Assembly: GCF_023499255.1 (NCBI RefSeq)
Contig: NZ_CP092183.1
Coordinates: 7,870,501-7,934,500 of the forward strand
Origin: Couchioplanes caeruleus
GTDB taxonomy: Bacteria > Actinomycetota > Actinomycetes > Mycobacteriales > Micromonosporaceae
DNA length: 64,000 nt
Direction of reading: 5' to 3'
Each line of letters opens with the position of its first letter. Position 1 is the first letter of the stretch. Under the pieces are notes generated by a model. It saw only the letters and a program-made list of their open reading frames with translations. It had not been told where the DNA came from and ran no database searches. Positions 27,000-43,811 of this stretch are shown here, piece by piece. The translations under genes and the position numbers were made by a program.

Positions 27000-29204
27000 T
27001 CACGGGAAGTTGGTGACCGTCACCGGTACGGTCGCCGTGCCCTGCGCCGGGCCGCCGGTGTTGTTGACCACGTGGTCGATGACCCCGTTGCCACCCAGCG
27101 AGACCGTGAAGATGCTGTGCAGCTTCACGCCGCCGTTCACCGGAACCTCGAAGCCCCGGTCCGAGTGCACCTGCGGGTTGACGTTGAAGTAGCAGTAGCT
27201 GCCCATCGCCCACGCCTCGTGGCTCGTGACGTTGTCCGCCACCTTGTACGCCGCGTACCCGTTGGCGCCGCTGCGCCAGGCCGCGTTCGACGGCGGGTCG
27301 TACGGCTGCTCGTTCTGCAGGAAGTACGTGCGGCCGCCGTTGCCGTTCCAGATGACCTCGTACTTCTGGTAGTGCTCGACGAAGAGCCCGTACGCCGTGA
27401 CGTTCTGACCGTTGACGATCAGGCCGCTGTCGGCGGTGTTGACCGTCCAGCCGTACGTGCCGGCGTTGCCGTGGTCGGCGCGCCACGCCCAGATGTGGTC
27501 GATGATCGTGTTGTTGCTGTTCACCAGCAGGCTGTTGGTGGCCTTGCCGGCGATCGAGCCGCCGATCCGGAAGAACACGTCCTGCACGGTGGTCGGGTTG
27601 CCGGCGTGGCTGGCCGAGGACCCGTTCGGGCCGATGACCAGCAGGTTCGCCGAGTTGGTGGTGCCGGCGTCGAAGAGCAGGCCGGCCACCTTCACACCGT
27701 CCACGTCGGCCACCTGCATCGGGGTGACGCCGTTGTCCGGGATGATCGTCGCGTAGCCCAGGCCGAGCACGACCGTGTTGGCGCGGGTCACGTTGATCGT
27801 CTGGTTCACGTGGTAGACGCCCGGCTGGAAGATCAGGTTCAGGCCCTGCGCGAGCGCCTGGTTGATCGTCGCGGCGGAGTCACCGGGCTTGGCGACGTAG
27901 AACTGGCTCAGCGGGAGGCTGGTGCCCGGCGTGTTGCCGTTCGCCCAGGTCACGCCGGACGCGTTCTGCTGCAGGTTTGGCACGAAGACCGCGTACTGGC
28001 CGCCGGCCTGGTAGAGGTACGGCTTCTCCCGGATGACCGGGGCCGTGCCGATCGTCGTGTACGGCGGGTTCGGGAAGCTCGACGCCGGTGCGCCCTGCAC
28101 GCCGACGAAGGCCTGGTTCCACACCGCGTTCAGGCTCGAGCCGATCTGGCTGTTGCGGGTGAACCACTGCTGCTGCGAGTACTGCTGCTCCGAGCCGCTG
28201 ATCCGCGAGTCGGCGATGTAGCCGCCGGAGGCCCAGCCGTACCCGTTGGGGGCGAGGTTGAGGTCGCCGTGGATGTCCATGCGGCGGAACGGGGCGGCCT
28301 GCGAGACGGCCCACCGGTTGGCGCCGCTGACCGGGTACACCGAGATGTTCTCGACCGAGCGCCAGAAGTTCTGGGTCGCGTTGCCCTGGAACCAGCCGGC
28401 GTCGACGGTGATGTCACCGTTGATCCGCACGTCCTGCGGGTTCTGGCCGAGGCCGAGCACGGAGGTGTAGAAGCCGACCTGGATGTTGAGGCCGTTGTAG
28501 GTGCCCGGCTTGAACGCGAGCACGTAGCGCTGGGTGCCGAACTGGTTCGACTCCTGCTGCTTGAAGATCGTGTCGGCCTGGCTCTGGATCGAGGCGCTCG
28601 ACATCGACGGGTCGAAGACGATCACGTTCGCGCCGAGGCTGCCACCGCCGGGGACGGTCGGGCCGGTGGGCGGGGTCGTCGGGCCGGTCGAGGTGCCGCC
28701 GAAGACCTTGAACTCCCACAGCGAGTAGCCGTAGCCGGTGGCGCGCTCGGTGCCGTACATGCGCACGTACCGGCCGGTCGCGTTGACGGTCACGCTCTGC
28801 ACGCCCGCGACGCCGGCGGTGGCGGGGCTGGCGTCGGCCCAGCTGCTGGCGTCGTTCGAGGTCTGAATCTTGAAGGTCTTCGCGTACGCGGCCTCCCAGT
28901 TCAGCTCCACCCGGTTGATCGCCGAGCTGGCGCCGAGGTCGACCTGCAGCCACTGGGGGTCGGAGAACGCGGAGGACCAGCGGGTGCCGGTGTTGCCGTC
29001 GACGGCGGCCGAGGCCGGGAAGGCACCCGGGTTCTCCGAGGACGAGGCGGTCGCGGGCTTGCCCTGCGAGAGCAGCGTCTCGGCGGCGTGCGCGGTCAGC
29101 GTGGTGAACGCGCCGAACGCCGCGACGACCGCGACGACCAGGCCGCCGGTGGCGCCGAGACGCCACCGGCTGCGAGGCCGGGGGATGGTTTGGGGGACGG
29201 TCAT
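27000..29204 (-). CDS. Secreted discoidin-domain, bilobal beta-helix protein (GH55/GH87-like)
   Basis: A 734-aa secreted protein. A signal peptide of about 40 residues ends near LTAHAAE. An F5/8-type discoidin domain follows (about 42-175, with SSENPGAFPASAAVDGN, NRVELNWEAAYAKTFKIQ and GYGYSLWEFKVFG). After a Pro/Thr linker, residues about 195-734 hold two beta-helix lobes, each opening with a FKPGTYNG / FQPGVYHVN sequence, followed by TSVLGLG / NTVVLGLG, the double-lobe pattern of GH55-like exo-beta-1,3-glucanases. Related sequences are often mislabelled adenylyl cyclase. Catalytic residues cannot be fixed here. Start ATG follows GAGGAG; a good promoter lies at 29328-29356. It probably attacks fungal or plant glucan. 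Confidence 0.7.
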   Translation of the reverse strand: MTVPQTIPRPRSRWRLGATGGLVVAVVAAFGAFTTLTAHAAETLLSQGKPATASSSENPGAFPASAAVDGNTGTRWSSAFSDPQWLQVDLGASSAINRVELNWEAAYAKTFKIQTSNDASSWADASPATAGVAGVQSVTVNATGRYVRMYGTERATGYGYSLWEFKVFGGTSTGPTTPPTGPTVPGGGSLGANVIVFDPSMSSASIQSQADTIFKQQESNQFGTQRYVLAFKPGTYNGLNIQVGFYTSVLGLGQNPQDVRINGDITVDAGWFQGNATQNFWRSVENISVYPVSGANRWAVSQAAPFRRMDIHGDLNLAPNGYGWASGGYIADSRISGSEQQYSQQQWFTRNSQIGSSLNAVWNQAFVGVQGAPASSFPNPPYTTIGTAPVIREKPYLYQAGGQYAVFVPNLQQNASGVTWANGNTPGTSLPLSQFYVAKPGDSAATINQALAQGLNLIFQPGVYHVNQTINVTRANTVVLGLGYATIIPDNGVTPMQVADVDGVKVAGLLFDAGTTNSANLLVIGPNGSSASHAGNPTTVQDVFFRIGGSIAGKATNSLLVNSNNTIIDHIWAWRADHGNAGTYGWTVNTADSGLIVNGQNVTAYGLFVEHYQKYEVIWNGNGGRTYFLQNEQPYDPPSNAAWRSGANGYAAYKVADNVTSHEAWAMGSYCYFNVNPQVHSDRGFEVPVNGGVKLHSIFTVSLGGNGVIDHVVNNTGGPAQGTATVPVTVTNFP

Positions 29205-29301
29205 GGCTTCGCTTCTCCTCGTATGGAGGTACGGACGCGCGGGGTTCGCGTCCGGATGAGGCAGGAGCCGGGGAAAGCTCCGGCACGGGCGGACGATCGT
29301 G

Positions 29302-29317
29302 GGAGAGCGCTCACCCG
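29302..29317. promoter_or_regulatory. GAGCGCTC operator-like box
   Basis: GGAGAGCGCTCACC, centred on the perfect 8-bp palindrome GAGCGCTC (29305-29312). This resembles the CebR-type LacI operator core (GGGAGCGCTCCC) that controls cellulase and glucan-use genes in Streptomyces. It lies about 16 bp past the -10 box of the discoidin/beta-helix gene. Confidence 0.5.
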
Positions 29318-29327
29318 TGTGGTGTGG

Positions 29328-29356
29328 ACGCTAAGTTCGTTACGTCGATGTGTCAA
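29328..29356 (-). promoter_or_regulatory. Promoter of the discoidin/beta-helix gene
   Basis: Minus strand: -35 TTGACA (29351-29356), 17-bp spacer, -10 TAGCGT (29328-29333). Confidence 0.7.
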
Positions 29357-29387
29357 AGGGTCGGCGTACCGGTTACGGACGCGGTCC

Positions 29388-29401
29388 CGGAACCGGTTCC
29401 G
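29388..29401. repeat. CGGAACCGGTTCCG palindrome
   Basis: Perfect 14-bp palindrome 32 bp upstream of the -35 box of the discoidin gene, with a related ACCGGT core at 29368. Possible activator site; no partner identified. Confidence 0.4.
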
Positions 29402-29641
29402 CCGATCGGTCAGGACTCGCCGCGCAGTCCCGGTACCCGCACCGCACCCGGTCGCCGTCCACTCCTCCCGGCATCCGCCTCTAGCTGGCGCTATGCCCGA
29501 TTGGGCCAGAGTCAAGGGCGGTCGGGCGCGAGGTATCGACCCGGCGCCGATTACGTTTTTCCGCCGCCATCGACGCGTCCGAATGAGCTGGAACCACCAG
29601 GACGGTCCTATGCCACATACGGGACATGATCGGCGATCTCG

Positions 29642-29655
29642 GGGAAGCGCTTCCC
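29642..29655. promoter_or_regulatory. GGGAAGCGCTTCCC palindrome
   Basis: Perfect 14-bp palindrome with a LacI-like GCGC core, 14 bp upstream of the -10 box of the phosphoesterase gene, so it would cover its -35 region. Confidence 0.5.
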
Positions 29656-29669
29656 GGCCCGCGAGACCC

Positions 29670-29675
29670 TACAGT
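29670..29675 (+). promoter_or_regulatory. Leaderless -10 box of the phosphoesterase gene
   Basis: TACAGT ends six bases before the ATG at 29682, and no ribosome site is present. This places the transcription start at or next to the start codon. Confidence 0.55.
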
Positions 29676-29681
29676 GGCTCC

Positions 29682-30185
29682 ATGCGCCTGGTCCTGACGA
29701 CCGACACCCACGTCCCCAAGCGAGCCCGGGACCTCCCCGCCCCACTGTGGTCAGCGATCGACGTGGCCGACGTCGTCATCCACGCCGGCGACTGGGTCGA
29801 CGTACCGATGCTCGACGCGCTGGAGGCCCGGTCCCGGCGGCTGATCGCCTGCTACGGCAACAATGACGGGGCCGCCCTGCGCGCCCGCCTGCCCGAGATC
29901 GCCCGGGTGACGCTGGGCGGTCTGCGCCTGGCGGTCATCCACGAGACCGGCGACGCCAAGGGCCGCGAACGCCGCTGCGACGAGGCCTTCCCGGACACGG
30001 ACGTCCTGGTCTTCGGCCATTCCCACATTCCGTGGGACACCACCACCCCGCGCGGGCTCCGGCTGCTCAACCCGGGCAGTCCGACGGACCGGCGACGGCA
30101 GCCGTACGGCACGTACATGACGGCGGAGATCGAGAGCGGCAAGCTGACCGCCGCCACGCTGCACAACCTGCCGGCCCGCACGTGA
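29682..30185 (+). CDS. MJ0936/YfcE-family metallophosphoesterase
   Basis: A 167-aa calcineurin-like phosphoesterase. Metal-binding motifs occur in order: TDTHVPK (DxH), AGDWVD (GDxxD), YGNNDG (GNND), HETGD (H) and FGHSHIP (GHxH). The length fits the YfcE/MJ0936 group, Mn-dependent phosphodiesterases of uncertain physiological substrate (cyclic nucleotide-like in vitro). It starts MRLVLTTDTHV with no ribosome site but a TACAGT box six bases upstream, suggesting a leaderless mRNA. Stands alone. Confidence 0.85.
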   Translation: MRLVLTTDTHVPKRARDLPAPLWSAIDVADVVIHAGDWVDVPMLDALEARSRRLIACYGNNDGAALRARLPEIARVTLGGLRLAVIHETGDAKGRERRCDEAFPDTDVLVFGHSHIPWDTTTPRGLRLLNPGSPTDRRRQPYGTYMTAEIESGKLTAATLHNLPART

Positions 30186-30348
30186 GCTGGTCACTCTTCG
30201 CGACCCCGCTTCATCTGGCGGCGGCCGACAGTACGGATTCGGGCGATGGGCGTGCAGGGTTCCGACGGCACCGGACGCCTCATCGCCGCCTCGGCGGGCG
30301 ATCGGCCGGTGGAGGTGGCGCAGCAGTGGCCGCGGTGAACGCGCCGGT

Positions 30349-31443
30349 TCAGGTGAGGCGGACCGGGCCGGCGCCGATGTGGACGCGGAAGAGCTGGTAC
30401 GGGTAGCGCCGCTGGTCCTGGCCGCGCCGGTACGTGGCCTGGCGGTGCAACTGGTTGGCCGTCACGTAGAGGTAGCCGTCCTCGGCGACCGACATGGTGT
30501 CCGGCCACAGCAGGCGGGGGTCGTGTGCCACGGTTTCCATGGTGCCGTCGGGCAGGCGGCGCAGGATCGCGTTGTGCTCGGCGTTCGTGACGTACACGCG
30601 GCCCTGGTCGTCGGTTTCGAGGCCGTCGGCGACGCCGCCCTTGTCGCCCTCGTCGACGACCGTCGCCGCCACGTCCTCCTCGCTCATCTCGCCGTCGAGG
30701 AGGGCGTCGGTGGAGACGCTGTACCAGCGGCGTGACATCAGCGGGCAGTAGAAGAGGCGGGAGCCGTCGGCCGAGATCGCGATGCCGTCGGCGCCCATCG
30801 TGACCGGCTCCGGGGCGCCGTCCTCGGGGCGTTCCATGAACGGCTCGCCCTCCACCACGGGCAGGAACGCGGGCGGGGTCTCCGCCTTCGTGGACGGGTG
30901 GTCGTGCAGCCGACGCCAGGCGGTGCCGCTGCCCAGGTCAACCACGATGATGGCGTTGGGGCCCTGGTCCGACGAGTCGGTGATGTACGCGACATCGCGC
31001 CGCAGGTCGAAACGCACGTCGTTGAGGTACGTGGTCGGCAGCGCGGCGCTGCGGTCGAAGACGATGGTGCGGATCACGGTGTCGTTCGCGAGGTCGATGC
31101 AGACGAGCTTGGGACCGCCGACCTGGGTCTTCTGGAACATGGGCGAGCCGGTGTCGAGCACCCACAGCCGGTCGGCCGGGTCCACGACGATGCTCTGCAC
31201 CGAGACGAACGCCTTCGGGTCGTCGTCGGCGGACGGGCTGTTCCAGGCTTGGTTCGGGTACGGGACCACGGTGCCGTCGCGGATCTCGCCGACGGTGAAC
31301 TCCACGTCGTCGCCCCACTTCGGGAAGTTCACGAAGATGCGGCCCCGCGCGGAGACGCTGACGCCCGTCGGCATGGGCCCGCTGTCGAACGTGTGCACCG
31401 TCTCCAGCTCGCCGAAGGGCTGGTCGACAGGATGATCCGTCAT
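30349..31443 (-). CDS. Major royal jelly protein (yellow)-like beta-propeller
   Basis: A 364-aa protein resembling the MRJP/yellow family and, more loosely, SMP-30 lactonase-like six-bladed beta-propellers. Telling segments are DRLWVLDTGSP, LNDVRFDLRRDVAYITDSS, GADGIAISADGSRLFYCPL, and VADGLETDDQGRVYVTNAEHNAI, with WPDTMSVAEDGYLYVTANQLHR near the end. No signal peptide is apparent, so it is likely cytosolic. Bacterial members are of unknown function; a sugar-lactone or bound-ligand role is possible. The 163 bp between it and the phosphoesterase gene show nothing clear. Confidence 0.75.
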   Translation of the reverse strand: MTDHPVDQPFGELETVHTFDSGPMPTGVSVSARGRIFVNFPKWGDDVEFTVGEIRDGTVVPYPNQAWNSPSADDDPKAFVSVQSIVVDPADRLWVLDTGSPMFQKTQVGGPKLVCIDLANDTVIRTIVFDRSAALPTTYLNDVRFDLRRDVAYITDSSDQGPNAIIVVDLGSGTAWRRLHDHPSTKAETPPAFLPVVEGEPFMERPEDGAPEPVTMGADGIAISADGSRLFYCPLMSRRWYSVSTDALLDGEMSEEDVAATVVDEGDKGGVADGLETDDQGRVYVTNAEHNAILRRLPDGTMETVAHDPRLLWPDTMSVAEDGYLYVTANQLHRQATYRRGQDQRRYPYQLFRVHIGAGPVRLT

Positions 31444-31594
31444 CCTCGGCGCTTACCCGGCCGGCCCCGGCGCAAAACGGCCCGGCGGACGCGGGCGCGC
31501 GAGGCCGACGTGCCCCGGGGCCATTCGGTATCCGGAGGCCGGGCCCGCCGCGCGAAGGTCGTGATCTCGGGTTTCCTTACTCACGCAGAATGAA

Positions 31595-31629
31595 GGGGCC
31601 AGGGCCAGCGGATGCTGGGCCCCGGCCCC
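31595..31629 (-). terminator. Terminator downstream of glyA
   Basis: GGGGCC..GGCCAGC and GCTGGGCC..GGCCCC form a long, slightly interrupted hairpin with a four-base loop, 66 bp after the glyA stop. The rest of 31444-31694 shows no gene. Confidence 0.6.
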
Positions 31630-31694
31630 GGCCTCGACGGGAGTTGCGGTCCGCACCACCCACCGAGCTACGACATCGAGAATGTGACCTTGAC

Positions 31695-33119
31695 CTAGAC
31701 GCCCAGGTCGACGCTCGGGTAGAGCGGGAACGCGCCGAGCAGCTCGTTGGCCTGCTTGCTGATGCCGTCGGCGACGGCGGGGTCGAGGTCGAACTTCGCC
31801 TTCGACGCGCCGGCCTTCGTCTGCGACAGGACCGTGTGCATCAGCTCGGCGATCTGGTCCATCTCCGCCGTGCCGAGGCCGCGGGTGGTCAGCGCCGGGG
31901 TGCCGATGCGGATGCCGGAGGTGTACCAGGCGCCGTTCGGGTCCTGCGGGATCGCGTTGCGGTTGGTGACGATGCCGCTGTCCAGCAGGGCCTGCTCGGC
32001 CTGGCGGCCGGTGAGGCCGTACTTGTCGACGTCGACCAGCACGAGGTGGTTGTCGGTGCCGCCGCTGACCAGCGTCGCGCCGCGGCGCAGCAGGCCCTCG
32101 GCGAGCGCCTGGCTGTTGTCGACGATGCGCTGGGCGTAGTCGGCGAACTCGGGGCGGCGGGCCTCGGCGAACGCGACCGCCTTGGCGGCCATGACGTGCG
32201 CGAGCGGGCCGCCGAGCACCATCGGGCAGCCGCGGTCCACCTGGTCGGCGAGCTCGGGCCGGCAGAACACCGCGCCGCCGCGGGGGCCGCGCAGGCTCTT
32301 GTGGGTGGTGGTGGTGACGATGTGCGCGTGCTCGATCGGGTTGAAGTCGCCGGTGAAGACCTTGCCGGCGACCAGGCCCGCGAAGTGCGCCATGTCGACC
32401 ATGAAGGTCGCGCCGACCTCGTCGGCGATCTCCCGCATGATGCGGAAGTTCACCTTGCGCGGGTACGCCGAATAGCCACCGACGATGATCAGCGGCTTGA
32501 ACTCGCGCGCCGACTCCCGCAGGGCCGCGTAGTCGATCTGGCCCGTCGCCGGGTCGACGCCGTAGCTGCGCTGGTCGAACATCTTGCCGGAGATGTTGGG
32601 GCGGAAGCCGTGGGTGAGGTGGCCGCCCGCGTCCAGGCTCATGCCGAGCATGCGCTGGTTGCCGAAGGCCTGCCGCAGCTCGGCCCACTCGGCGTCGGTG
32701 AGGTCGTTGACGTTGCGCTTCTGCGCCTTGGCCAGCGCCGGCGCCTCGACCCGGTCGGCGAGCACGGCCCAGTAGGCGACCAGGTTGGCGTCGATGCCGG
32801 AGTGCGGCTGGACGTACGCGTACGGCGCGCCGAACAAGGCCTTGGCGTGCTCGACGGCGATCTGCTCGACGGTGTCGACGTTCTGGCAGCCGGCGTAGAA
32901 GCGCCGGCCGATGGTGCCCTCGGCGTACTTGTCGGAGAGCCAGTTGCCCATGGCGAGCAGCACGGCGGGGGACGCGTAGTTCTCGGACGCGATCAGCTTG
33001 AGGGACTCGCGCTGGTCGTGCAGTTCCTTGGCGATGGCGTCGGCGATGCGGGGCTCGACGGCGCGCACGGCCTCGAGGGCGGCACGAAACGCGGTCGACT
33101 CGGCGTTCAGCTCAGACAT
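31695..33119 (-). CDS. glyA: Serine hydroxymethyltransferase
   Basis: A 474-aa PLP enzyme interconverting serine and glycine with tetrahydrofolate one-carbon transfer. The PLP lysine is Lys274 in [31 protein letters not shown] and [21 protein letters not shown] are the folate/dimer motifs. It is about 50 residues longer than E. coli GlyA, chiefly through an insert around residues 120-165, as in a known actinobacterial subgroup. A ZTP riboswitch aptamer lies in its 5' leader (33146-33232), linking expression to purine/folate status. The ATG at 33119 follows GGGAGG. Confidence 0.94.
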
Positions 33120-33123
33120 CGGA

Positions 33124-33232
33124 CCTCCCTATCACAGGTGAAGAGGCCCAGGCGCACGGCAGGTCACCCCGACGGGTGGGACCGCTCCCCGATGGTGGAT
33201 CCATCCGAACGCGCCAGTCACGGCCCGGGTGG
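33124..33232 (-). ncRNA. ZTP (pfl) riboswitch controlling glyA
   Basis: Read on the minus strand, the leader contains CCGTGACTGGCG (about 33214-33225), then ACCATCGGGGAGCGG, a variable stem-loop and GCGCCTGGGC (33146-33155). These are the conserved core elements of the ZTP/ZMP-sensing pfl motif, in order. Downstream, GGGCCTCT, which overlaps the conserved 3' element, can pair with GGGAGGTCC at the ribosome site, so ligand-bound aptamer should free the site and allow translation. The class is known to govern folate and purine genes including glyA. The switching helix is my inference. Confidence 0.85.
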
Positions 33233-33297
33233 AAGCATACCGGCGTACGGCGGCGTGGTGGCAACCGAGAAGCGGGCGGAAGGGTTGCGGAGATCAC

Positions 33298-33303
33298 TAG
33301 CCT
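33298..33303 (+). promoter_or_regulatory. Leaderless -10 box of antiporter 2
   Basis: TAGCCT ends six bases before the GTG at 33310; no ribosome site is present. Confidence 0.5.
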
Positions 33304-33309
33304 GACCGG

Positions 33310-34890
33310 GTGAACGGCGTCCAGATCCTCCTGATCATCGGGGCCGGTATCGCCGTCTCCGCCCTCGCCCACCGCCGCGGTGTGCAGCCCGGGCTGGTGG
33401 TGGTGACCCTGGCGGCCGCGGCGAGCTTCCTGCCCGGCATGCCACGGCTGGAGCTCGAGAGCGAGCTGATCCTGGCGATCGTCGTGCCGCCGCTGCTCTA
33501 CTCGGCGACCCGGGCCGCGTCGGCCACGGCGTTCGGCCGCAACCTGCGGGCGATCCTCAACCTCGGCGTGCTGCTGGTCGTGCTGACCGCGGGGGCGCTG
33601 GGGCTGCTGGCGTCGTGGCTGCTGCCCTCGATCGGGCTGGCGACGGCGTTCGTGCTGGGCTCGGTGCTGGCCCCGCCGGACACGATCACCACGGTGTCGC
33701 ACGGGTCGGAGATCGGGCTGCCGCGCCGGGTCACCACCATCCTCACCGGCGAGAGCCTGGTCAACGACGCCACGGCGCTGACCCTGTTCAGCATCGCGGT
33801 GGCGGCGGTCGGCGGGGAGCACGCCACGTGGGGCTCGGGCATCCGGGACTTCGCGTACAACGCCTTCGTCGGTGTGGTCGTCGGTGGGGTGCTGGCCGTG
33901 GCGACGCTGTGGGTACGCAAGCGGCTGCGCAATTCGACGCTGGAGACGTCCCTCGTGCTCCTCGTGCCGTTCACGGCGTTCCTGACGGCCGAGGAGCTGC
34001 ACGCCTCGGGAATCCTGGCCGTGGTGGTGGCTGCGTTCGCCATCAGCGCCAACACGACGCTGGACCCGCGCCACCAGTACCCCGGCGCGTACCGGACGCG
34101 GCTGCAGGAGGACGCATTCTGGCCGGTCGTCGACTTTCTGCTCGAGACGTTCGTGTTCGCGTACATCGGGCTGCAGCTGCGCTTCGTGGTCGAGGATCTG
34201 CGCGACGCCGACGAGATGGACCTGACCCGCGTCCTCGTGGCGGCCGGGGTGCTGCTGGCGGCGGCGATCGTGCTGCGGGTCGTCGGCGTCTACGTGACCT
34301 TCGGGCGCTGGCAGCTGAGCTGGTTGATGTACCGCAGACGGGCCGAGGCCCACCCGGAGATCGTCGAGCAGCTTGCCGCCGCCCGCGAGGCGGCGCGCCG
34401 ACGCGACCAGCGACGCGGCCGGAACCGGCGCCGGACGGCCCCGCTCGGGCCGCCGACGGCCCGCGAGACGCTGGTCGTCGGCTGGACCGGCATGCGGGGC
34501 ATCCTCACGCTCGCCGCGGCGGCCGCCATCCCGGAGACCACCGCCGGCGGCGAGCCGTTCCCCGGCCGCGACGCCATCCAGGTGATCGCGCTCGTCGTCA
34601 CCCTGGGCACGCTGCTGATCCAGGGCACGACGATCCGCCGGGCGGTCACCCTGCTCGGCCTGGACGTCCGCGCCGAGCGCGAGGAGGCCGAGACGATGCG
34701 CCGCCGCGGTGAGGAGATCGTCGCGGCCGCGGCATCCGGCACGAGCGACGCCGACTTCGACCGGCAGCGCACCCGGCTCGGCGAGAGCGTGGCCACCGGG
34801 GACATCGACGAGGAGACCGCCCGCGCCCTGATCGCCGAGGTCGACCTGCGCCAGGCCGCCCAGCACACGGTCGCGGAGAAAATGCCGTGA
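33310..34890 (+). CDS. CPA1-family Na+/H+ antiporter (second copy)
   Basis: A 526-aa cation/proton antiporter, paralogue of the protein at 3567-5210. Motifs: PPLLYSATRAAS, APPDTITTVSHG, GESLVNDATALTLF with the conserved ND, DFLLETFVFAYIGLQL and GWTGMRGILTLAAAAAIPE. About 12 hydrophobic segments, a charged loop of 40 residues at about 340-385 (REAARRRDQRRGRNRRR), and a short cytosolic tail. Start GTG at 33310 has no ribosome site but a TAGCCT box six bases upstream, so leaderless. A different tail suggests different regulation from the first copy. Confidence 0.9.
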   Translation: MNGVQILLIIGAGIAVSALAHRRGVQPGLVVVTLAAAASFLPGMPRLELESELILAIVVPPLLYSATRAASATAFGRNLRAILNLGVLLVVLTAGALGLLASWLLPSIGLATAFVLGSVLAPPDTITTVSHGSEIGLPRRVTTILTGESLVNDATALTLFSIAVAAVGGEHATWGSGIRDFAYNAFVGVVVGGVLAVATLWVRKRLRNSTLETSLVLLVPFTAFLTAEELHASGILAVVVAAFAISANTTLDPRHQYPGAYRTRLQEDAFWPVVDFLLETFVFAYIGLQLRFVVEDLRDADEMDLTRVLVAAGVLLAAAIVLRVVGVYVTFGRWQLSWLMYRRRAEAHPEIVEQLAAAREAARRRDQRRGRNRRRTAPLGPPTARETLVVGWTGMRGILTLAAAAAIPETTAGGEPFPGRDAIQVIALVVTLGTLLIQGTTIRRAVTLLGLDVRAEREEAETMRRRGEEIVAAAASGTSDADFDRQRTRLGESVATGDIDEETARALIAEVDLRQAAQHTVAEKMP

Positions 34891-34909
34891 GCCGGACGGC
34901 CCGCGCCGG

Positions 34910-34915
34910 TACGGT
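34910..34915 (+). promoter_or_regulatory. Leaderless -10 box of the erm leader
   Basis: TACGGT ends seven bases before the leader-peptide ATG at 34923; there is no ribosome site between them. Confidence 0.55.
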
Positions 34916-34922
34916 CGGCGCC

Positions 34923-35030
34923 ATGCCAACGCCGCACGCCCTTCTCGCGCAGGCCTCGACGCCTGTCGCGCGCGGGCCCCTGCACTCGTCCCGCCTGCGC
35001 AACCGGCGTCGCGCCCTGCGCCGCCGCTGA
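34923..35030 (+). CDS. Erm leader peptide, 35 aa
   Basis: A 35-codon reading frame starting MPTPHALLAQASTPVARG and ending in a very Arg-rich tail containing RLRNRRRALRRR. Position (117 bp before erm), size and likely leaderless start fit the leader peptides that control inducible erm genes. Arg-X-Arg triplets are the established arrest motif for macrolide- and ketolide-bound ribosomes (RLR in ErmDL); the tail offers RLR and RNR. Arrest there would refold the downstream RNA and open the erm start. It has no other likely function. Previously unknown as far as I can tell, but erm leaders are poorly annotated. Confidence 0.75.
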   Translation: MPTPHALLAQASTPVARGPLHSSRLRNRRRALRRR

Positions 35031-35144
35031 GCCTGCCCCTGAGCTGAGCGCCGCCAGGGCCCCTTCGTGTCCTCTTCCCACGGACGGGCCTCGCTGACGC
35101 CTGTCCGCGTTCGCCGCCGCACCCGGCGGCAGACAGGACCCTGG
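34952..35144 (+). promoter_or_regulatory. Erm attenuator region
   Basis: The leader gene and the spacer share a near-repeat: GGCCTCGACGCCTGTC (34952-34967) and GGCCTCGCTGACGCCTGTC (35087-35105). CCTGTC in either copy can pair with GACAGG (35132-35137), and CCAGGG (35054-35059) can pair with CCCTGG (35139-35144), two bases before the erm ATG. These competing helices would mask or free the erm start depending on whether a ribosome is stalled in the leader. Confidence 0.55.
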
Positions 35145-35146
35145 TC

Positions 35147-35914
35147 ATGGCGCCACACCGGCAGGAACACGCCCGCGCGCGGCGGGCGTACGGACAGAAC
35201 TTCCTCATCGATCCCGGCTCGCTGCGGCGGGTCGTCGCGGCCGCGGGCATCCGGCCCGGGGATCTCGTGTACGAGGTGGGCGCCGGTCGCGGCCACCTCA
35301 CCGCCGAACTGGCCCGGCGGACCCGGCGGCTGGTCGCGTACGAGGTGGACCCGGAGCTGGCCGCCGCGCTGCCCGACCGGCCGGGGGTGGCCGTACGGGC
35401 CGGGGACTTCCTGCGGGCCGCACCCCCGGCGGAGCCGTTCCGGGTGGTCGGCAACATCCCGTATGCGCTGACCTCGGCGGTCGTCGAGTGGTGCCTGGAC
35501 GCCCCGGCCCTGACCACCGCGACCCTCGTCACGCAGCTCGAGTACGCCCGCAAGCGGACCGGCGACTACGGACGCTGGAGCCGGCTGACGATCCGCACCT
35601 GGCCGCGGCACGCGTGGGAGCTGTCCGGGCGGCTGCCGCGTACGGCGTTCCGCCCGGTCCCCCGCGTCGACGGCGGCATCCTGCGGTTGCGCCGCCGCCC
35701 GGTGCCGCTGGTGCCGGACCTCGCGGACTGGCAGCGCTTCGTGGACCTCGGGTTCACCGGGCTGGGCGGCTCGTTGCAGGCCACTCTGACCGGCCGCTAC
35801 GGCGTACGGCGCACCGCTGCCGCGTTCCGCGCGGTCCGGCTCGCACCCGACGTGCCGGTCGGCCGGGTGTGGCCGGAGCAGTGGCTGACCCTGTACCGGC
35901 TGCTCAGCCGGTGA
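35147..35914 (+). CDS. erm: 23S rRNA A2058 N6-dimethyltransferase (Erm)
   Basis: A 255-aa Erm/KsgA-family methyltransferase. Motifs: YGQNFLID at 15-22, the SAM-binding YEVGAGRGHLT at 42-52, and the catalytic NIPY at 103-106. FRPVPRVDGGILRL and the C-terminal helical domain fit Erm rather than KsgA. Methylation of A2058 gives macrolide-lincosamide-streptogramin B resistance. The gene follows a leader peptide and competing RNA hairpins, implying antibiotic-inducible expression. Its TGA touches the convergent chemoreceptor's stop with no spacer. Composition matches neighbours, so it looks intrinsic rather than recently acquired. Confidence 0.92.
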   Translation: MAPHRQEHARARRAYGQNFLIDPGSLRRVVAAAGIRPGDLVYEVGAGRGHLTAELARRTRRLVAYEVDPELAAALPDRPGVAVRAGDFLRAAPPAEPFRVVGNIPYALTSAVVEWCLDAPALTTATLVTQLEYARKRTGDYGRWSRLTIRTWPRHAWELSGRLPRTAFRPVPRVDGGILRLRRRPVPLVPDLADWQRFVDLGFTGLGGSLQATLTGRYGVRRTAAAFRAVRLAPDVPVGRVWPEQWLTLYRLLSR

Positions 35915-37564
35915 TCAGACGCGGAACCGCTCGGCGACCGTACGCAGCTCGTCCGCCACCCGGTTGAGCTGCGCGACCGCCGCGTCGGCCTCGGCCAGCG
36001 TGCTGGTCGTCGCCTCGGCGGAGCGGGCGACGCCGTTGATGTTCGCCGCGATCGTCGAGCTGCCGCCCGCGGCCTCGGTGATGCTGCGGCTCATCTCGCC
36101 GGTCGTGGCGGTCTGCTCCTCGACCGCGGAGGCGATCGTGACCTGGTAGTCGTTGATCCGCTGGATGATCTGGGAGATCTCGCCGATCGCCGCGACCGCG
36201 CTCGACGTGTCGGCCTGGATGGTCTCCACCCGGCGGGAGATGTCCTCGGTGGCCTTCGCCGTCTCCTGCGCCAGGTCCTTGACCTCGGACGCGACGACGG
36301 CGAAGCCCTTGCCCGCCTCGCCGGCCCGGGCCGCCTCGATCGTGGCGTTGAGCGCGAGCAGATTCGTCTGCTCGGCGATCGCCGTGATCACCTTGACCAC
36401 GTCGCCGATCTCCGCCGAGGAGGCACCCAGCTTGGCGACCGTCTCGTTGGTGTTCTGCGCGACCCCCACCGCGCCGGCGGCGACCTGCGCGGCGTCGTTG
36501 GCGTTCTGGGCGATCTCGCGGATGGAGGCGCCCATCTCGTCGCTGCCGGCCGCCACCGTCTGCACCGAGGCGGAGACGTCGCCGGCGGCCCCGGCCACCA
36601 GCCCGGCCTGGGCGGCGGCCTCGCGGGCGCTCTCCCCGATCCGGCCGGTGACGCCGGTGAGCTGCTGGGCGCTCGCGCCGAGTTCCTGGGCGCCGCCGGT
36701 GAGCTGGGCGACCGTGCCGCGCAGGCCGTCGCGGGCCCGGTTCACGGCCGCCGCCATGAGCCCGAGTTCATCGCGCGAGCGCACCTCCGCGGGCACGGTG
36801 AGGTTGCCGTCGGCGACCGCGCCGAGCGCGTGGGCGACCGAGGCGAGCTGGCGGCGGACCAGCCGCGCCACGATCAGCGCGATCGCGGCGGCGAGGACGA
36901 TGCCCGCGATCAGCGCCACGATCACGTACCGCCGGGCGTTGCGGAAATCCGCGGCCGAATCCGCGGTGATGGCGTCCGCTTCGGAGTCCTCGGTCTTCTG
37001 CAGCGCGGCCACGGCGCCGTTCATCTCGCCCTCCACGGACTCGAAGGCGGCGCCGATCTGGGCGGCCGGTGGCAGCGTGAAGCCCGCCGGCGGGGACTCC
37101 TGGAAGAGCACCGTGTTGCGCAGCGTGCGGTAGCGGCCCATGGCGTCGGTGAAAGCCTCGAGGCTCTTGCGCCGGGTGGCCGAGTCCGCGGCGATCTTCC
37201 CGTACGCGGCCAGGGCGGCGTCGATCTTCGCGTCGGCGTCGCGGACGTCCTGCCGCCCCTGCTGCTTGTCCGGGCCGGGCGGGCTGATCTGGTAGACGAG
37301 CATGCCGCGGAACATGTCGGCGATGCCGCCGCGCAGCTCGGCGACCTGCTGGAGGCTGTCGACGTGCTTGTCCTTCAGCACGCCGATGTTCTCGTTGGTC
37401 TCGTTCATCCGGCTCAGCGCCAGCGTGCCGACCATGATCGCCACCAGCGCCATCGCGGCCGCCGGGAGCACGGTCTTGACCGTCATGCCGCGGTCCGCGA
37501 GCCACCCGGCAAGGGGGTTGCGCTGCACCGTCACCTCGACGGCGCCGTCGGTCCTGCCCGCCAT
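35915..37564 (-). CDS. Methyl-accepting chemotaxis protein
   Basis: A 549-aa transmembrane chemoreceptor. The first membrane helix is about residues 25-48, followed by an extracellular four-helix-bundle-type sensor (about 50-210) and a second helix (about 213-236). A HAMP domain then leads to a cytoplasmic coiled-coil whose tip [19 protein letters not shown] is the invariant CheA/CheW-binding hairpin. ATG at 37564 has a GAGAGGTGG site; upstream in-frame codons lack one. No che genes are nearby. Its presence suggests a motile stage, such as the flagellated spores of Actinoplanes (inference). Confidence 0.92.
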
Positions 37565-37640
37565 CCCGGCACCACCTCTCGTCCGGGACCGATCATCACT
37601 CCCGCACGGGGCGCCGGGGGGCGAAACCCCGAAAGCCGGG

Positions 37641-40607
37641 TCAGCGGACCGCGAACTCCACAAGGTCGGCGTCGCCCGGCCGCCACCCGTCCACGACGAC
37701 CGCCACGTAACGGGCCCGCGCGCCCAGGGCCGCGTACGTCAGCCCGTCCTGGGACGCCTCGATCCGGTGCGGACGGCGGTGGCCCGCACCCCACGTCAGG
37801 TCGACGTCCCGCACCCGGGTGACCGAGCCGAGATCGACGACCATGCGGCCGGCCGCCCCGGGCCGCCACGACGTGGCCGGATCGCCGTCGACCGCCCGGT
37901 CCGGCGAGGTCATGCCCTCGGGCAGCGGCGAGGTCGGGAACGTGGTCCGGCCACGGGCCAGGTCGGCGGTCGGCGTCACCGGCCCGCCCGGCACGGTGAG
38001 GCGGCGGGACCTGCCGGAGGCCAGGCGTACGGCCGCCGACCAGGAACCGCACCGCAGCGTGATCCGTACGCGGTTGTCCCGCGGGGCCGTCACCGTGACG
38101 TGGTGTGAGTCGTGCACCTCGAAGCGGGTGCCGGCCGGCGCCGCACCCTCGACGGTGAAGCGCGGCGGCTCCACGCGCGCTGTGCCGCCCTCGAGGCTGA
38201 CCTCCCACTCCGAACCCTTGCCGGTCACCACCTGCGTGCCCCGGTAGAGCCGGGACCCCGACGGGATGCGGACGGTCACGCCGCGCACCGGGTCGGGCGC
38301 GAGGTTGAAGAGGCTGAGGTAACCGTCGGCGTCGCTGACCGACAGACCCTCGGCGGCGGGCAGGGCGCGGGTCGCGGCCGCCGCCAGGTCACGGCGGCTG
38401 CCGGCGTACCCCTCGATCAAAGGTGCCGGCGCGCTGATGCCGGCCGCCGTCACGGTGATCTTCCCGTTGCCGCCGTGGGTGACGAGGCCGGCGCGCCCGT
38501 CGATGCCGACCCACCGCCGCGCGGCGCGGGTCTCCGGCACGGCCGCCGCATCCGTCCAGGTCAGACCGTCGATCGAGGTCTGGATCACGAACCTCTTGGC
38601 GTACGCGGCCTCCCAGTGGATGCGCACGCCGGCGACCCGCACGGCCAGGCCGAGGTCCACGGCGAGCCAGCTGTCCGCCCGGCCGCGTTCCTCCGCGGCC
38701 ACCGTCCAGCGGGTCAGCGGGTTGCCGTCGGTGGTGTTGCGGGCCGGGTACCAGACGTCCTCGGACGACGCGGTGGGCATCGCGCCCTGGGCCAGATCAG
38801 CACCGCGGACGTCGAGCACCTCGAACGTATAGATCGAGTAGCCGAACGTCGTGGCCGGCTCCCGGCCGAGCATCCGCACGTAGCGGGCGTCACGCGGGCT
38901 GAACGAGATGCTGCCGGTGAGTTGGTCGCCGAGCTCGGCGCGACCGCCGTCGAAGGTGAACGTCCGGCGGCCGGTGAGGCCCGGCACGCCCGGCATCGCC
39001 ATCGTGAACAGCGCGAGCGTGCCCTCCCCCGGCAGGCCCGTGCTGGCGTACACCACCGTGCCCGTGGGCAGCGTGGTGAAGCCGGCGTACCCGCCGCCGA
39101 CCGCGAGGACGGTCGCGGTCGCGTCGACCCCGTCACGGTTCTGGCGGTACGCCCTGGTCCAGCGCTCGGTGGGCTGCGCACCCGCCGGCAGGAACGCCGG
39201 CACCCGCGCGTCGACCAGCCAGTTGTCGTGGCCGGGCTGCCACAGGAAACGGGCGAACTCGGGCTTCGTGACCGCCGCCGCGAACGCCGCCGGCGACTGG
39301 TGGACCGTCAGGCCGACGTCCCGCCCGAAGTCCCGGGTGCCCGCGGCGGAACGGAAGAACTCCTGCTTCGACACCGGTGCCACGGGCGTCTTGCGGAGGC
39401 GGTGGAACAGGTACGCGACGGCGACCTCCGCGCGGGCCACCGGCTCCTCACTCTCCTCCGCACCGAACTTCACGAGCCGGAACTCGGGCTCGTGCCGCAC
39501 GTACGGCAGCAGCCGCTCGGCGAGGTCGGCCTCGGCGCGGGCCGCGTCCCGGTCCCCGGCCACCTGGGCCAGGAAGGCGAGCGCGAGCACGTCGCGCCCG
39601 TACAGGTGGTAGCGCTCGGTGGCCATCGGCATGACCGGCTCACCGGCGTCGCTCGCCAGCAGCCGCAGGGTCCGCCACAGCTGCTCGCCGCTGGGCTGGC
39701 GGGTCAGGATCTCCGGCACCGGCTGCCCGGCCACGAGGAAGTGGATCGCGGAGCGTCCCGCCGTACGCCACAGCTCCGCCTGGTGGTCCGGGCTCACCGA
39801 GCCGTCACTCTCCACGATGAACGAGTCGTGGATGTTGTGCGCGGTGGTCCGCTGGTCGATCCGGTCGCCGTCCACCACCGCGGGGTTCGCCCGGTCGGCG
39901 ACGGGCAGGGCGCTCGCGTTGCTCGCCCAGAAGAGGAACCGCTCCCGCCAGGACTCGGCCGACTCCGGGTCGGCGGTCCAGGCCGTCCCCGGCACGAGGG
40001 CCTGCGCGTACGCCCCCATCGCCGCGAGCCTGCTGTCACCCTTCCACCCGCCGGCGGTCCCGTTGGGCGTGAAGCCGGCACTCATCGGGTCGTCCTGGGT
40101 GTTCAGCTCGTATGCGTATGCGGCCTGCCCCTCGGCGATGCGCTGCACGTTCACCCGCGTCGCCGGGTCCAGGTCGGCCCACATCAGCCGGGCGGCGAGC
40201 ACGAAGTACAGCTCGAACGTGGAATCCCAGAACAGCAGCCGACCCCACTCGCTGCCCCCGGCAAGCCGGTTGCTCGCGGCGAACCGCTTGATCGTCGCCA
40301 CCGTCCGGGCCCGGAGCGTCGCCGCATCGACCCCCGCGAGCCCGGCGTCGAAGTCGTCCATGCCGAGCAGAACGGCGTTACCGAGCACGGAGATGAACCG
40401 GAACTCCCCGCCCCGGTACGCCCCGCTCGCGTCGTCCCACTGCTCCTCCACCCACCGCGTGTGCAGGTGCAGCGCCTCACGGTAGACAGCGGCCACCGGC
40501 CCCGCCGCCCGCACCGCGCCGACCGCGGCCGAGGAGCCGGCGAACGCGCTGCTCACGCCGCTGATACCGGCCAGCATGAGGAGCTGACGACGGGACAGTG
40601 CGACCAA
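37641..40607 (-). CDS. Large Tat-secreted discoidin-domain protein
   Basis: A 988-aa exported protein. I chose the TTG at 40607, since GGAGG lies five bases upstream and it makes a clean Tat signal ([23 protein letters not shown]). Residues about 30-400 are rich in helices and repeats of aromatic-Asp segments ([25 protein letters not shown]), suggesting an alpha/alpha-barrel catalytic region as in several polysaccharide lyases and glycosidases. Two F5/8 discoidin domains are clear: about 610-700 ([19 protein letters not shown]) and 905-988 ([19 protein letters not shown]). Catalytic family not recognised. Alone in its neighbourhood; likely acts on an external glycan. Confidence 0.7.
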
Positions 40608-40672
40608 GGGGACCTCCGGGCGGGACGCCGATGCCCTGCATACCCTTCGCTTCGGCCCCAAAGACTGTCAAA

Positions 40673-41555
40673 TCACACTTCAGCACCGGCCCCGCGGTAC
40701 GCGGCGAGCATCGCCCTGACATAGGCCGGCATCACAGCGCGAACCTCGTCCTCGGGTGCCGCGCTGGCAAGGTTGTCGACGGCCAGTTCGACACCGCGCG
40801 CACGAGGGGCCCCGAACAACTCGTCGAAGTACCTCATCGCGGCTTCAACGCCGGCGGAACAGATCGGCTGGCACTTCAGCTCGGCAAGCCGCATCCCGAC
40901 CATCTGCGGCGAGAGACGACCACGCATGAGCCGGAAGACGTCGCCTGCGTCCTTCGGCTTGATGCGGCTCCCCCTTCCTGCGGCGACGCGTTCTCCGATC
41001 TTGTGCGCCTTCGCGACCAGGAGAGCCGGCGCGCCCGCCACGCGGAGCGTCGCCGCGCGAGGGTCCTGCCAGGCTCCAAGCTGGTGATCGTCATCCTGTC
41101 GTTGTCCAGCAAACTGGCCTCGAGACCAGCCGCGATACGCGAGGCGTTCTTCCCGTGATCGGGCAGCTTGGCATCGCGCCCGGATCCGGGCGCGATGCTC
41201 TCCGCGACCATGAGGTCGACCTCGATGAGAGTCTGCGCGCCGCGCACCTCGGTACGCCGTAGCCAGGCCCCGGCTCGACCCCGTTGCCGCCGGCCTTGAC
41301 CTTCAGAGCGAATCCGGCGTCGGTCATCGCCCGCACGATGGCCGGGTCGGCGGCGAGGAGCATGGGATCGATACTGAGGTCCGCATCCGTCGTGAACGGG
41401 GCGACACCCTCGAGATCCGCATCGCCGGCGCGGAGATAGACGGCCTGCGCGCCCACCAGGACCAGCGCCTCGCGGTGGGCGTCCAGTGCATCGCAGGCGT
41501 CAAGCAGGACACGGCGGGCCGCAACGTACAACGGGTCGTACTGAGAGTCGAACAC
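40673..41555 (-). pseudogene. AbiEii-like nucleotidyltransferase toxin, two frameshifts
   Basis: A continuous protein of about 294 residues can be traced only by changing frame twice. The first part (41555 to about 41270) begins FDSQYDPLYVAARRVLLDA and holds the nucleotidyltransferase motif LVGAQAVYL...FTTDADLSID. The second (about 41270-41070) reads WLRRTEVRGAQTLIEVDLM and NDRMTITSLEP. The third (about 41070-40673) reads DPRAATLRVAGAPALLVAKA and ends YRGAGAEV. Breaks fall at GAGCCGGGGCC (about 41265-41275) and GAGCCTGGCAGG (about 41065-41075). Both shifts go the same way. The gene follows an AbiEi-like regulator by 10 bp, so it is the AbiEii toxin position. Either truly inactivated or two sequencing indels. 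Confidence 0.75.
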
Positions 41556-41565
41556 AAAGGACAGA

Positions 41566-42642
41566 CTAGTCGCCTGTCAGGTTGTCACTCCGCCACTGTC
41601 CAGTGTGTTCTTCCATCCATTCGATCAGCGCCTCCCCTTCCTCCGGGAGGCGCCCGTTTCCGCTGAGGCAATCCAGCGCCACCTGGGACAGGCCGGCGTG
41701 AAGAGCACCTCGGACGACGCGGGCACGCGTCAGCTGCGATGGGTGCGCCGCCCGCAGCAGCAGGACGTTCGCGCCCCGGTCGGCAGGGAGCAGTTGGTGC
41801 TCTTCGGCAAACGTCACCGGGTCAGGGACATAGAGGGCCAACTGGGCCGGTGCAGCCACCGTCACGATCTCGCGCACCGCGTACGAGCCGGTCACGAGCA
41901 TCTGACTGTCGGCGCGTACGGCTTCCGACCCGAGGTCGCGGACGACCCTGTCGAGGCCGGCCCGGGCCACGTAACCGCTACCCCGATTCGACTTGATCAG
42001 CGAGTAGTGCCGGGCCCGCTCCCGCAGCAGGCGCGACCAGTCGACTTCTTCGATCATGCGGTTGGCGCCGCGGCGCAGCAGGCGTTCGCTGCCCAGTGCC
42101 TCCACCGTCCGCGAGGCGTACGCCGGGCTCACCCCGGCGACGCGTGCAAGATCGGTGATCCGATACGGCGGGGCGTGGTCCACGAGGGCGCGCACCAAGC
42201 CGTTGACCGAACGCCCCTGCAGGCCGCGCCGGGGATTCTCGGACGGGAAGGGGTCACTGGTGGCGCCCTCGGTGTGGACGAGGATCGGAAGGCCCGGGAC
42301 TCGGATCTGCCCGTTGCCGGTCAGATCCAGGTGGTTGATCCTCTGTTCGGCGAGGAGCTGGCGCGAGCGAGGGCTGAGCCAGGGCGCCACCACCAGAATC
42401 GACTGACTGCGCAGCCGGGAGAGTTCACCGATGAGCTGATCGACGTGCCGGGGCGTGAAGCGCGAGAACCCCCGCACGGTGATCTCAACAGTGAGCCGGG
42501 CGGTCCGCACCTCCCAGACCGCATCGCGGTCGCCGTCGCCGTACCGCCCGTCCACCCTCACGTCGAGGCTGTCGTCCTCCAGGAGATCGCGGAAGCGGGC
42601 GAAGGCCGTGGGCAGCAATTCGCGCGTCAGCAGCTTCTCCAT
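41566..42642 (-). CDS. AbiEi-like antitoxin/regulator of a type IV TA pair
   Basis: A 358-aa protein. The N-terminal part (about 40-125) has a restriction-endonuclease-like pattern (WEVRTARLTVEITVRG, SILVVAPWLSPRSRQLLAE, NHLDLTGNG) as seen in AbiEi relatives. A winged-helix DNA-binding segment follows (about 150-195: RITDLARVAGVSPAYASRTV). In AbiE systems this protein neutralises AbiEii and represses its own operon by binding inverted repeats; TGGCAA/TTGCCA half-sites lie right upstream here. ATG at 42642 sits among these repeats. The downstream toxin is frameshifted, leaving this partner possibly orphaned. Confidence 0.75.
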   Translation of the reverse strand: MEKLLTRELLPTAFARFRDLLEDDSLDVRVDGRYGDGDRDAVWEVRTARLTVEITVRGFSRFTPRHVDQLIGELSRLRSQSILVVAPWLSPRSRQLLAEQRINHLDLTGNGQIRVPGLPILVHTEGATSDPFPSENPRRGLQGRSVNGLVRALVDHAPPYRITDLARVAGVSPAYASRTVEALGSERLLRRGANRMIEEVDWSRLLRERARHYSLIKSNRGSGYVARAGLDRVVRDLGSEAVRADSQMLVTGSYAVREIVTVAAPAQLALYVPDPVTFAEEHQLLPADRGANVLLLRAAHPSQLTRARVVRGALHAGLSQVALDCLSGNGRLPEEGEALIEWMEEHTGQWRSDNLTGD

Positions 42643-42643
42643 A

Positions 42644-42704
42644 TGGCAATGTTGCCACAGAACCCCGATTTGCCATCAAGTGTCAAGTCGCGGTCCTGTG
42701 GCAA
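42644..42704 (-). promoter_or_regulatory. Autoregulatory half-sites and promoter of the AbiE-like operon
   Basis: TGGCAA-TG-TTGCCA (42644-42657) is a perfect inverted repeat two bases upstream of the ATG. Further half-sites are TTGCCA at 42670-42675 and TGGCAA at 42699-42704. A minus-strand -35 TTGACA lies at 42681-42686 between them; the -10 would fall at about 42658-42664 (TTCTGT, weak). The arrangement fits negative autoregulation by the AbiEi-like protein. Confidence 0.65.
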
Positions 42705-42724
42705 GTGACCCGGATATCGTCTGC

Positions 42725-43789: not shown

Positions 43790-43811
43790 GAGGGCTATGT
43801 GCCCCGCCCGC

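Follow-up and report, generated by a model that had tools for sequence, protein, structure and literature searches.

A conserved leader peptide and a putative five-segment RNA switch upstream of erm in Couchioplanes caeruleus

We have analysed a 64,000-nt stretch of DNA from C. caeruleus (hereafter, the window; bases 7870501-7934500 of a single-contig genome of 8.42 Mb), in which a short reading frame precedes an erm gene. The genes and reading frames of the locus are as follows.

33310-34890: Na+/H+ antiporter gene, the upstream neighbour of the leader and erm
34923..35030, + strand: leader peptide reading frame of 35 codons, probably leaderless, recognized by its conservation before erm
35147..35914, + strand: erm, 23S rRNA (A2058) N6-methyltransferase of 255 aa (NCBIfam NF000337 above cut-off, Pfam RrnaAD, structure 6nvm)
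35915-37663, strand opposite to erm: chemotaxis-receptor-like gene, named by eye

The erm product scored 328.2 bits against NF000337 (the ErmE/H/O/R family; cut-off 320) and 230.3 against the broad Erm model (cut-off 212); its score with the ksgA model, 132.4, fell short of the cut-off of 171 for that model. Among solved structures it was closest to 6nvm (E 4.1e-74). Its identities to the erm products of Nucisporomicrobium flavum (94%), Pseudosporangium ferrugineum (76%) and Actinoplanes sp. RD1 (74%) place it on the Actinoplanes side of the family of these relatives, which we take to be the Micromonosporaceae. Visual examination of the long open reading frames of 27000-44000 revealed no polyketide synthase. 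Further upstream, a ZMP/ZTP riboswitch (Rfam RF01750, 48.6 bits) at 33139-33231 (-) lies directly 5' of a gene at 31695-33119 (-), by eye a serine hydroxymethyltransferase.

Three sequence elements to the 5' side of the leader ATG resemble a WhiB7-type promoter.

34878..34883, + strand: A/T box GAAAAT, WhiB7-type, inside the 3' end of the antiporter gene
34887..34892, + strand: -35-like hexamer GTGAGC, 3 bp past the A/T box, its position inferred from spacing
34910..34915, + strand: -10-like hexamer TACGGT, 17 bp past the -35, with 7 nt between its end and the leader ATG

We observed that all 96 leaders of our main set (defined below) with enough upstream sequence have a TAnnnT hexamer ending 3-16 nt before the start codon, and that the gap is 6-7 nt in 95 of them; the exception, from genome G114, was assigned a start at a non-start codon, and an in-frame GTG 9 nt upstream would give a gap of 7. 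A stretch of four or more A/T, ending 24-29 nt before the -10, was present at 90 of the 96, and within 26-28 nt at 87 of these 90. At 4277 random positions in the same sequences, TAnnnT occurred at 1.5% and TAnnnT together with the A/T run at 0.1%. This count of WhiB7-type promoters rests on the A/T box, the -10 and the spacing between them; a scan for the sigma-70 consensus found no promoter at the leader. The genome has six WhiB-family matches, of which one is a WhiB7-like protein that carries RGRPRK after the domain, a hook that is a hallmark of WhiB7. The geometry of the leader promoters is that reported for WhiB7 sites, in which an A/T-rich element lies 3 bp 5' of the -35 (PMC10727445, in the part accessible to us). 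These likenesses suggest that WhiB7 binds and controls the leader promoter. The position of TACGGT, 7 nt before the ATG, makes a leaderless start plausible, and the leader mRNA is probably leaderless.

The leader frame runs from ATG 34923 to TGA 35030 and encodes MPTPHALLAQASTPVARGPLHSSRLRNRRRALRRR. The initial annotation had placed it 117 bp before erm; the frame, its coordinates and its arginine motif hold, and the gap to ATG 35147 is actually 116 nt. GTG 34887 was rejected as an alternative start because conservation begins only at ATG 34923. A search for the peptide before related erm genes, which the same annotation had proposed, found a short leader at 123 of 134 family erm loci, these loci being 130 of the 133 erm matches from 250 genomes of the family (G166:C31, G101 and G014 were left out) together with 4 extras from the genus. 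One broad leader type, M..HAL(L/I)...R-x-R..RPAL, or a form related to it, occurs at 99 of the loci (the main set), and 7 of the 99 are of a second type that ends in RLRAAA. The 24 further loci have other short leaders, with endings such as FIRLRAAA or NIRIRIA. No acceptable leader was found at the remaining 11 of the 134 loci, two of which (G120 and G078) have a leader-like C-terminal piece near the edge of the 600-nt stretch.

A profile built from 20 leaders gave 93 matches in the 250 genomes, 66 of them at E <= 1.3e-6, a number that includes the loci of its own 20 rows; some of the 27 weaker matches also lie at erm leaders. Of the 66 strong matches, 65 share a strand with an erm match and sit 106-418 bp 5' of it. 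In 394 genomes of the class, the profile gave, besides G000 and G045, six weak matches, one of which (G487) is at an erm leader. Outside the family, 24 of the 28 best-scoring erm loci of this 394-genome sample have a short upstream frame that carries [R/K]-x-[R/K/W] and lies 4-9 nt downstream of a T[A/T]nnnT box, and an A/T box is present at 23 of the 24; the -10 box was a criterion in picking these frames, and R-x-R was not.

The sole strong profile match without an erm match, L166 (about 2731-2842, -) of genome G191, has a leader and promoter that look intact, with none of the downstream RNA segments described below. An open reading frame matching erythromycin esterase (PF05139, E 6.4e-120) starts about 360 bp past this leader, with an apparent small opposite-strand gene between the two; either erm has been lost there, or the leader has been left beside another macrolide-resistance gene. 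A naturally broken leader is seen in G057 (L066), where the frame ends after 11 codons, the R-P-W stretch runs on in another frame, and erm is otherwise present. Four other loci (L159, L160, L161 and L165, from G052, G072, G018 and G088, respectively) have leaders of only 11-13 codons, such as MGALNIRIRIA, before more distant erm genes.

Might the leader frame be a by-product of a leaderless transcript, with all control exerted by WhiB7 at the promoter? The promoter elements are the most uniform feature of these loci, and erm41 of M. abscessus is reported to be a direct WhiB7 target (PMC10727445, accessible part). Moreover, the leader shows little sign of selection at the codon level: third-position bias is slight (176 vs 158 and 148), and synonymous changes number 123 of 381 in frame against 92 of 372 and 80 of 367 in the other frames. 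Yet leaders that differ at most other residues retain R-x-R and its register, and 65 of the 66 strong profile matches precede erm, so that we hold control by the promoter alone to be improbable. The sequence comparisons give good support to an inducible erm leader. Likewise, the earlier proposal of a complete inducible MLS switch draws good support from conservation and promoter position; the arrest site and hairpins that it named are revised in what follows.

We predict arrest of the drug-bound ribosome at the following codons.

34992..35000, + strand: R24-L25-R26, with L25 in the P site and R26 in the A site, predicted from conservation, from ErmDL and from a fold scan (below)

How often the motif occurs depends on how the leaders were chosen. 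R-x-R or R-P-W is found in 98 of the 99 main-set leaders, a figure that is partly circular because the 69 seeds of this set were taken by an N-terminal pattern plus R-x-R somewhere; in addition, its Actinoplanes-clade leaders came from a list that required R-x-R (decisively so for G155, G190, G210, G254 and G126), its remainder were profile matches chosen by eye, seven of them weak, and the R-x-[R/W] pattern applied to it allowed W after W had been noticed. The 24 other leaders were picked by TAnnnT and R-x-R and so count as support for neither; a doubtful 25th (G035) was excluded from that count. We therefore give more weight to a filter-free set, the 77 of 134 loci with a frame starting [M/V]..HAL, which includes a spurious frame (G190) and the leader that stops early (G057). 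R-x-[R/W] occurs in 75 of these 77, where shuffling of residues within such Arg-rich peptides gives an expected 50.7, so Arg-X-Arg alone is weak evidence, though its conservation exceeds what chance would give. The stronger fact is its fixed register: in 69 of the 77 the motif stands in one register, 3-4 residues before Ala-Leu or Ala-Pro.

Main-set motifs (n=99) are RPR (52), RLR (25), RPW (5), RIR (4), RHR (3), RQR (2) and RTR (2), with RVR, RCR, RKR, RRR and RMR once each; all five R-x-W cases are R-P-W (G134, G147, G001, G091 and G112, of genera g4, g2 and g31). The motifs of erythromycin arrest obtained in vitro by inverse toeprinting are +X(+) and XP(X), with the subsets +X(W) and XP(W) (PMC6238534, accessible part), and natural R-P-W leaders are therefore expected to work. 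In ErmDL, the ribosome comes to a halt at RLR when Leu occupies the P site; this RLR is described as critical with telithromycin and dispensable with erythromycin (PMC8298421, accessible part).

The codons of this region are unevenly constrained. At R-x-R, Arg-1 is encoded by CGC (54), CGT (27), CGG (5) or AGG (5) and Arg-3 by CGC (35), CGA (25), CGG (20) or CGT (6), with TGG (Trp) in 5. The distal Ala-Leu is encoded by GCC in 76 of 78 leaders and CTG in 77 of 78; in the N-terminal HAL of the same set, the figures are 59 of 85 and 62 of 85, respectively (Fisher p about 7e-7 for GCC and 9e-7 for CTG, without correction for relatedness). G111 and G190 each differ from relatives by one base that puts the frame out at or just past R-x-R; Ala-Leu is thereby gone from the peptide, and the bases GCCCTG are kept. 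We read the fixed Ala-Leu codons, the varied Arg codons and the survival of GCCCTG through a frameshift as signs that the peptide is what is kept at R-x-R, and the RNA what is kept at the conserved Ala-Leu. As a separate matter, CGA at Arg-3 (25/91) and CGT at Arg-1 (27/91) are codons that are rare in the window antiporter and erm genes (CGA 2 and CGT 1 of 87 Arg codons). Are they slow codons, or do they avoid pairing?

Comparison of the leader regions suggests five RNA segments, numbered 0 to 4, that can pair in two alternative ways (ON, 0:1 with 2:3; OFF, 1:2 with 3:4).

35013..35018, + strand: segment 0, GCCCTG, codons A31-L32, which pairs with segment 1 (ON)
35055..35072, + strand: segment 1, with CAGGGC 35055-35060 for 0:1 and GGCCC 35058-35062 and GTCC 35069-35072 for 1:2
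35081..35090, + strand: segment 2, CGGACGGGCC, partner of 1 (OFF) or 3 (ON)
35099..35107, + strand: segment 3, GCCTGTCCG, partner of 2 (ON) or 4 (OFF)
35113..35130, + strand: inner stem GCCGCC/GGCGGC of the 3:4 hairpin
35132..35138, + strand: segment 4, GACAGGA, which includes AGGA, the putative Shine-Dalgarno of erm, 8 nt 5' of the ATG

Two competing hairpins had been named in the initial annotation. One, CCTGTC:GACAGG, is conserved, its six pairs forming in 23, 27, 25, 27, 24 and 26 of 27 relatives. The other, CCAGGG:CCCTGG, was dropped as a part of the switch, CCCTGG being present in only 2 of the 27 (the nearest relative, G170, has CCCAGG instead), though the full-length minimum-energy fold of the window RNA uses it. 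Segment 0, within the leader, and segment 2 (35081-35090) had been missed.

These comparisons used an alignment of 27 of 30 Actinoplanes-clade leaders (G152, G115 and G126 were left out). The ON structure is paired in 93.2% of cells and the OFF structure in 95.5%, against 32-49% and 26-46%, respectively, in slid controls. Helix 2:3 is paired in 97.5% of cells, with both-side changes at 3 of 9 pairs; at pair 104:219, which involves segment 0, the 27 sequences have UA (19), CG (6), UG (1) or no pair (1). For the ON structure as a whole, both-side-change cells numbered 14 against 3.5 in shuffled alignments (0/500 shuffles), with a covariation score of 0.138 against 0.085 (0/500). Stricter measures of the same structure did not exceed shuffling: 4 pairs with both-side changes against 2.5 (63/500), and 11 further pair types against 11.5 (414/500). 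The OFF structure showed no covariation among the 27 leaders, nor did its helix 3:4 (93.8% of cells paired); the inner stem of the 3:4 hairpin is paired in 96.8% of cells and gapped in 6 of 27. When segments were swapped between leaders, native duplex energies were slightly better for 0:1 (p=0.054), 2:3 (0.033) and 3:4 (0.069), and more clearly so for 1:2 (p=7.7e-5). No Rfam covariance model matched 34870-35200 up to E = 1. In summary, the pairings are conserved and their covariation is weak.

We propose, with a probability that we put at about 0.58, a two-layer inducible Erm switch that is read out through exposure of an RNA segment. In the first layer, a WhiB7-type promoter would place the mRNA start on the leader ATG or very close to it. 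In the second, a macrolide-bound ribosome would stall when L25 occupies the P site and R26 is next to be taken into the A site. Its front would reach to about 35010, which leaves segment 0 (35013-35018) just outside. That segment could then pair with 1, leaving 2 free to pair with 3, so that 3 would be kept off the Shine-Dalgarno segment 4 (ON). In the absence of drug, the ribosome would reach the stop codon and cover segment 0; helices 1:2 and 3:4 would form, and the Shine-Dalgarno would be hidden (OFF). The RNA would commit to one fold while it is still being transcribed and segment 4 has yet to be made. The sequences compared show conservation of the frame, of the motif and its register, of the promoter spacing and of the segments; the drug-dependent arrest, the start at the ATG and the effect on erm translation are parts that we infer.

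The timing in this scheme was imposed by the folding calculations. With the complete leader, the mean probability that the Shine-Dalgarno is unpaired was 0.23 stalled and 0.25 terminated (n=73, p=0.83); the complete leader thus shows no switch, and the model needs a kinetic trap. We folded partial transcripts, ending just past segment 3, for 68 leaders; the other 31 of the 99 were set aside because the segment 2/3 pattern (23) or the R-x-R..AL pattern (8) was not found. Helix 2:3 averaged 8.6 pairs with the ribosome stalled at R-x-R and 4.4 with the ribosome at the stop codon, the stalled value being higher in 46 of 68 leaders, lower in 5 and within 0.5 in 17. With the stall at R-x-R, helix 0:1 had more than 3 pairs in 66 of the 68; with the ribosome at the stop codon, helix 1:2 rose from 2.3 to 6.7 pairs. 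For the window RNA, the stalled values were 7.3 (0:1), 0.6 (1:2) and 9.9 (2:3), the terminated values 10.7 (1:2) and 0.8 (2:3), and 2:3 without a ribosome was 6.1. When the P-site codon was moved along the leader, mean 2:3 was highest at x of R-x-R (8.58, against 8.43 one codon before) and fell to 6.73 and 5.52 one and two codons further on; in the window, it went from 9.9 at R-x-R to 3.0 and 0.4. The helix choice in the partial transcript is supported by these calculations, and holds at assumed ribosome footprints of 13-17 nt with three 3' ends; with a 19-nt footprint, the window switch fails at one 3' end (0.3 vs 1.1) and is weaker at another (3.0 vs 0.5).

The same calculations bear on the position of arrest, which the initial annotation had set at the C-terminus of the leader. 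The terminal RRR lacks conservation, and with the ribosome placed on it the window RNA takes the OFF fold, offset +9 leaving 0.3 pairs of helix 2:3; arrest at RRR was accordingly discarded, and the likely site is R24-L25-R26, about two thirds along the leader. The window's own switch would be less clean than the average, since barring the leader bases from pairing still leaves 2:3 at 9.3 pairs and a second ON region appears at offsets +6 to +8. The 9.3 pairs are probably due to CCCCTG past the stop codon standing in for segment 0; the sequence GCCTGCCCCTGAGC at 35031-35044 holds this second CCCCTG.

Another way to read the same R-x-R arrest is through re-initiation, mRNA stabilization or Rho control rather than through a five-segment fold. 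This would accord with the full-length folding, which has no switch, with OFF helices that lack covariation and ON covariation that is weak, and with a report that ties the expression of erm to mRNA stability, without dependence on stalling (PMC5118997, accessible part). However, the fold scan has its maximum at the arrest codon itself, and the segment 0 bases outlast frameshifts and lack synonymous variation; a read-out other than the fold is, in our judgement, unlikely, though a serious alternative.

A more familiar arrangement is the four-segment attenuator of the ermC type, where the ribosome, once stalled, occupies the first arm of the first hairpin and melts it. The ermC stall opens that hairpin, whereas in the window the stall is predicted to leave the first arm exposed. 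The gene family and the output are the same, and helices 1:2 and 3:4 are conserved, as such an attenuator would have them. But segment 1 (35055 on) lies about 45 nt past the predicted leading edge (about 35010), so that, given arrest at R-x-R, the ribosome cannot cover it, and on average the folding requires free leader bases (2:3 falls from 8.58 to 5.41 pairs when they are kept from pairing). We consider the ermC arrangement to have little chance of applying here. Slightly less probable still is a leader with an intrinsic terminator that attenuates transcription. Actinobacterial resistance leaders, that of whiB7 included, can use terminators (PMC10727445, PMC12421871; accessible parts); in the window, a simple scan of 34850-35250 (+) found no terminator-like site, and the last hairpin includes the putative erm Shine-Dalgarno.

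Leaders of the second type, M.GSPG...RLRAAA or RIRAAA (L129, L132, L136 and L138-L141, genus g12), have their motif at the extreme C-terminus and, by eye, no Ala-Leu segment 0; their RNA read-out is probably different.

A simpler relative of the window arrangement was seen at five erm loci of one other family, f21, presumably Streptomyces-like (L189, L190, L191, L195 and L206). Their leaders, such as VAANNAIINTGLGRGYAHSVRMRRGPGALTGPGSHAR, match what we take to be the ErmSV leader. The leader and mechanism of ermSV (erm(V)) of Streptomyces viridochromogenes were reportedly described by Kamimiya and Weisblum in 1997, and ermSV is said to be, like the window gene, an inducible actinobacterial erm with a leader peptide. 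In L189, L191 and L206, GCCCTGACCGG of the leader is complementary to a downstream CCGGTCAGGGC, which otherwise pairs beside the Shine-Dalgarno; L190 and L195 are one base off that complementarity. Whole-leader folding gave 0:1 when stalled and pairing of 1 with the Shine-Dalgarno side when terminated at 3 of the 5 loci (L191, L206 and L189), with a partial switch in L190 and none in L195; the computed accessibility of AGGA hardly changed at any of the five. The f21 loci and the window have in common the layout of R-x-R followed by Ala-Leu and the 0:1 pairing, but differ in having three RNA segments (0, 1 and the Shine-Dalgarno) against five, and in the rest of the leader sequence. The switch would work in the same sense with five segments as with three. 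By analogy, the window leader may be a variant of the ermSV kind, with a five-segment arrangement that would be new; in the literature searched, outside which lay most subscription papers, including two on ermSF/ermSV, we found no description of the leader family or of the five-segment fold.

The window system can also be set against other known regulators. In trp-type attenuators, an early-stalled ribosome leaves a segment free and one at the stop codon covers it; the window proposal differs in that a drug in the tunnel would be the signal and translation start the output, and in its five segments. ErmDL, the leader of ermD, comes from Bacillus and has start signals of its own. It shares with the window leader an arrest motif R-L-R whose Leu occupies the P site (PMC8298421, accessible part). 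The motif is at codons 6-8 in ErmDL and 24-26 in the window. The ermCL-ermC system, like our proposal, uses translational attenuation that exposes the erm Shine-Dalgarno (PMC10219788, accessible part). Finally, the whiB7/wblC upstream frame and regulon, erm41 among its members, are likewise actinobacterial and antibiotic-induced, with an A/T box 3 bp 5' of the -35; the upstream frame of whiB7 acts via a terminator, unlike the window proposal, and for erm41 as a WhiB7 target no leader peptide is mentioned in the accessible part of that report (PMC10727445).

Taken more broadly, and somewhat short of even odds in our estimation, many chromosomal erm genes across the class may share one design: a WhiB7-type promoter, a leaderless mRNA that starts with an arrest peptide, an arrest codon (R-x-R or its substitute R-P-W) just 5' of an RNA segment encoding Ala-Leu, and a sign (segment 0 free = ON) kept from the three segments of ErmSV-like loci to the five of the Micromonosporaceae. 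If so, a large group of soil-actinomycete erm genes would sense macrolides by one old device, which unites transcriptional control by WhiB7 with translational control on a leaderless mRNA. The more than 100 natural leaders would then amount to a mutational scan of macrolide arrest motifs (R-P-R, R-L-R, R-P-W and others), in which arrest position and RNA fold evolve together.
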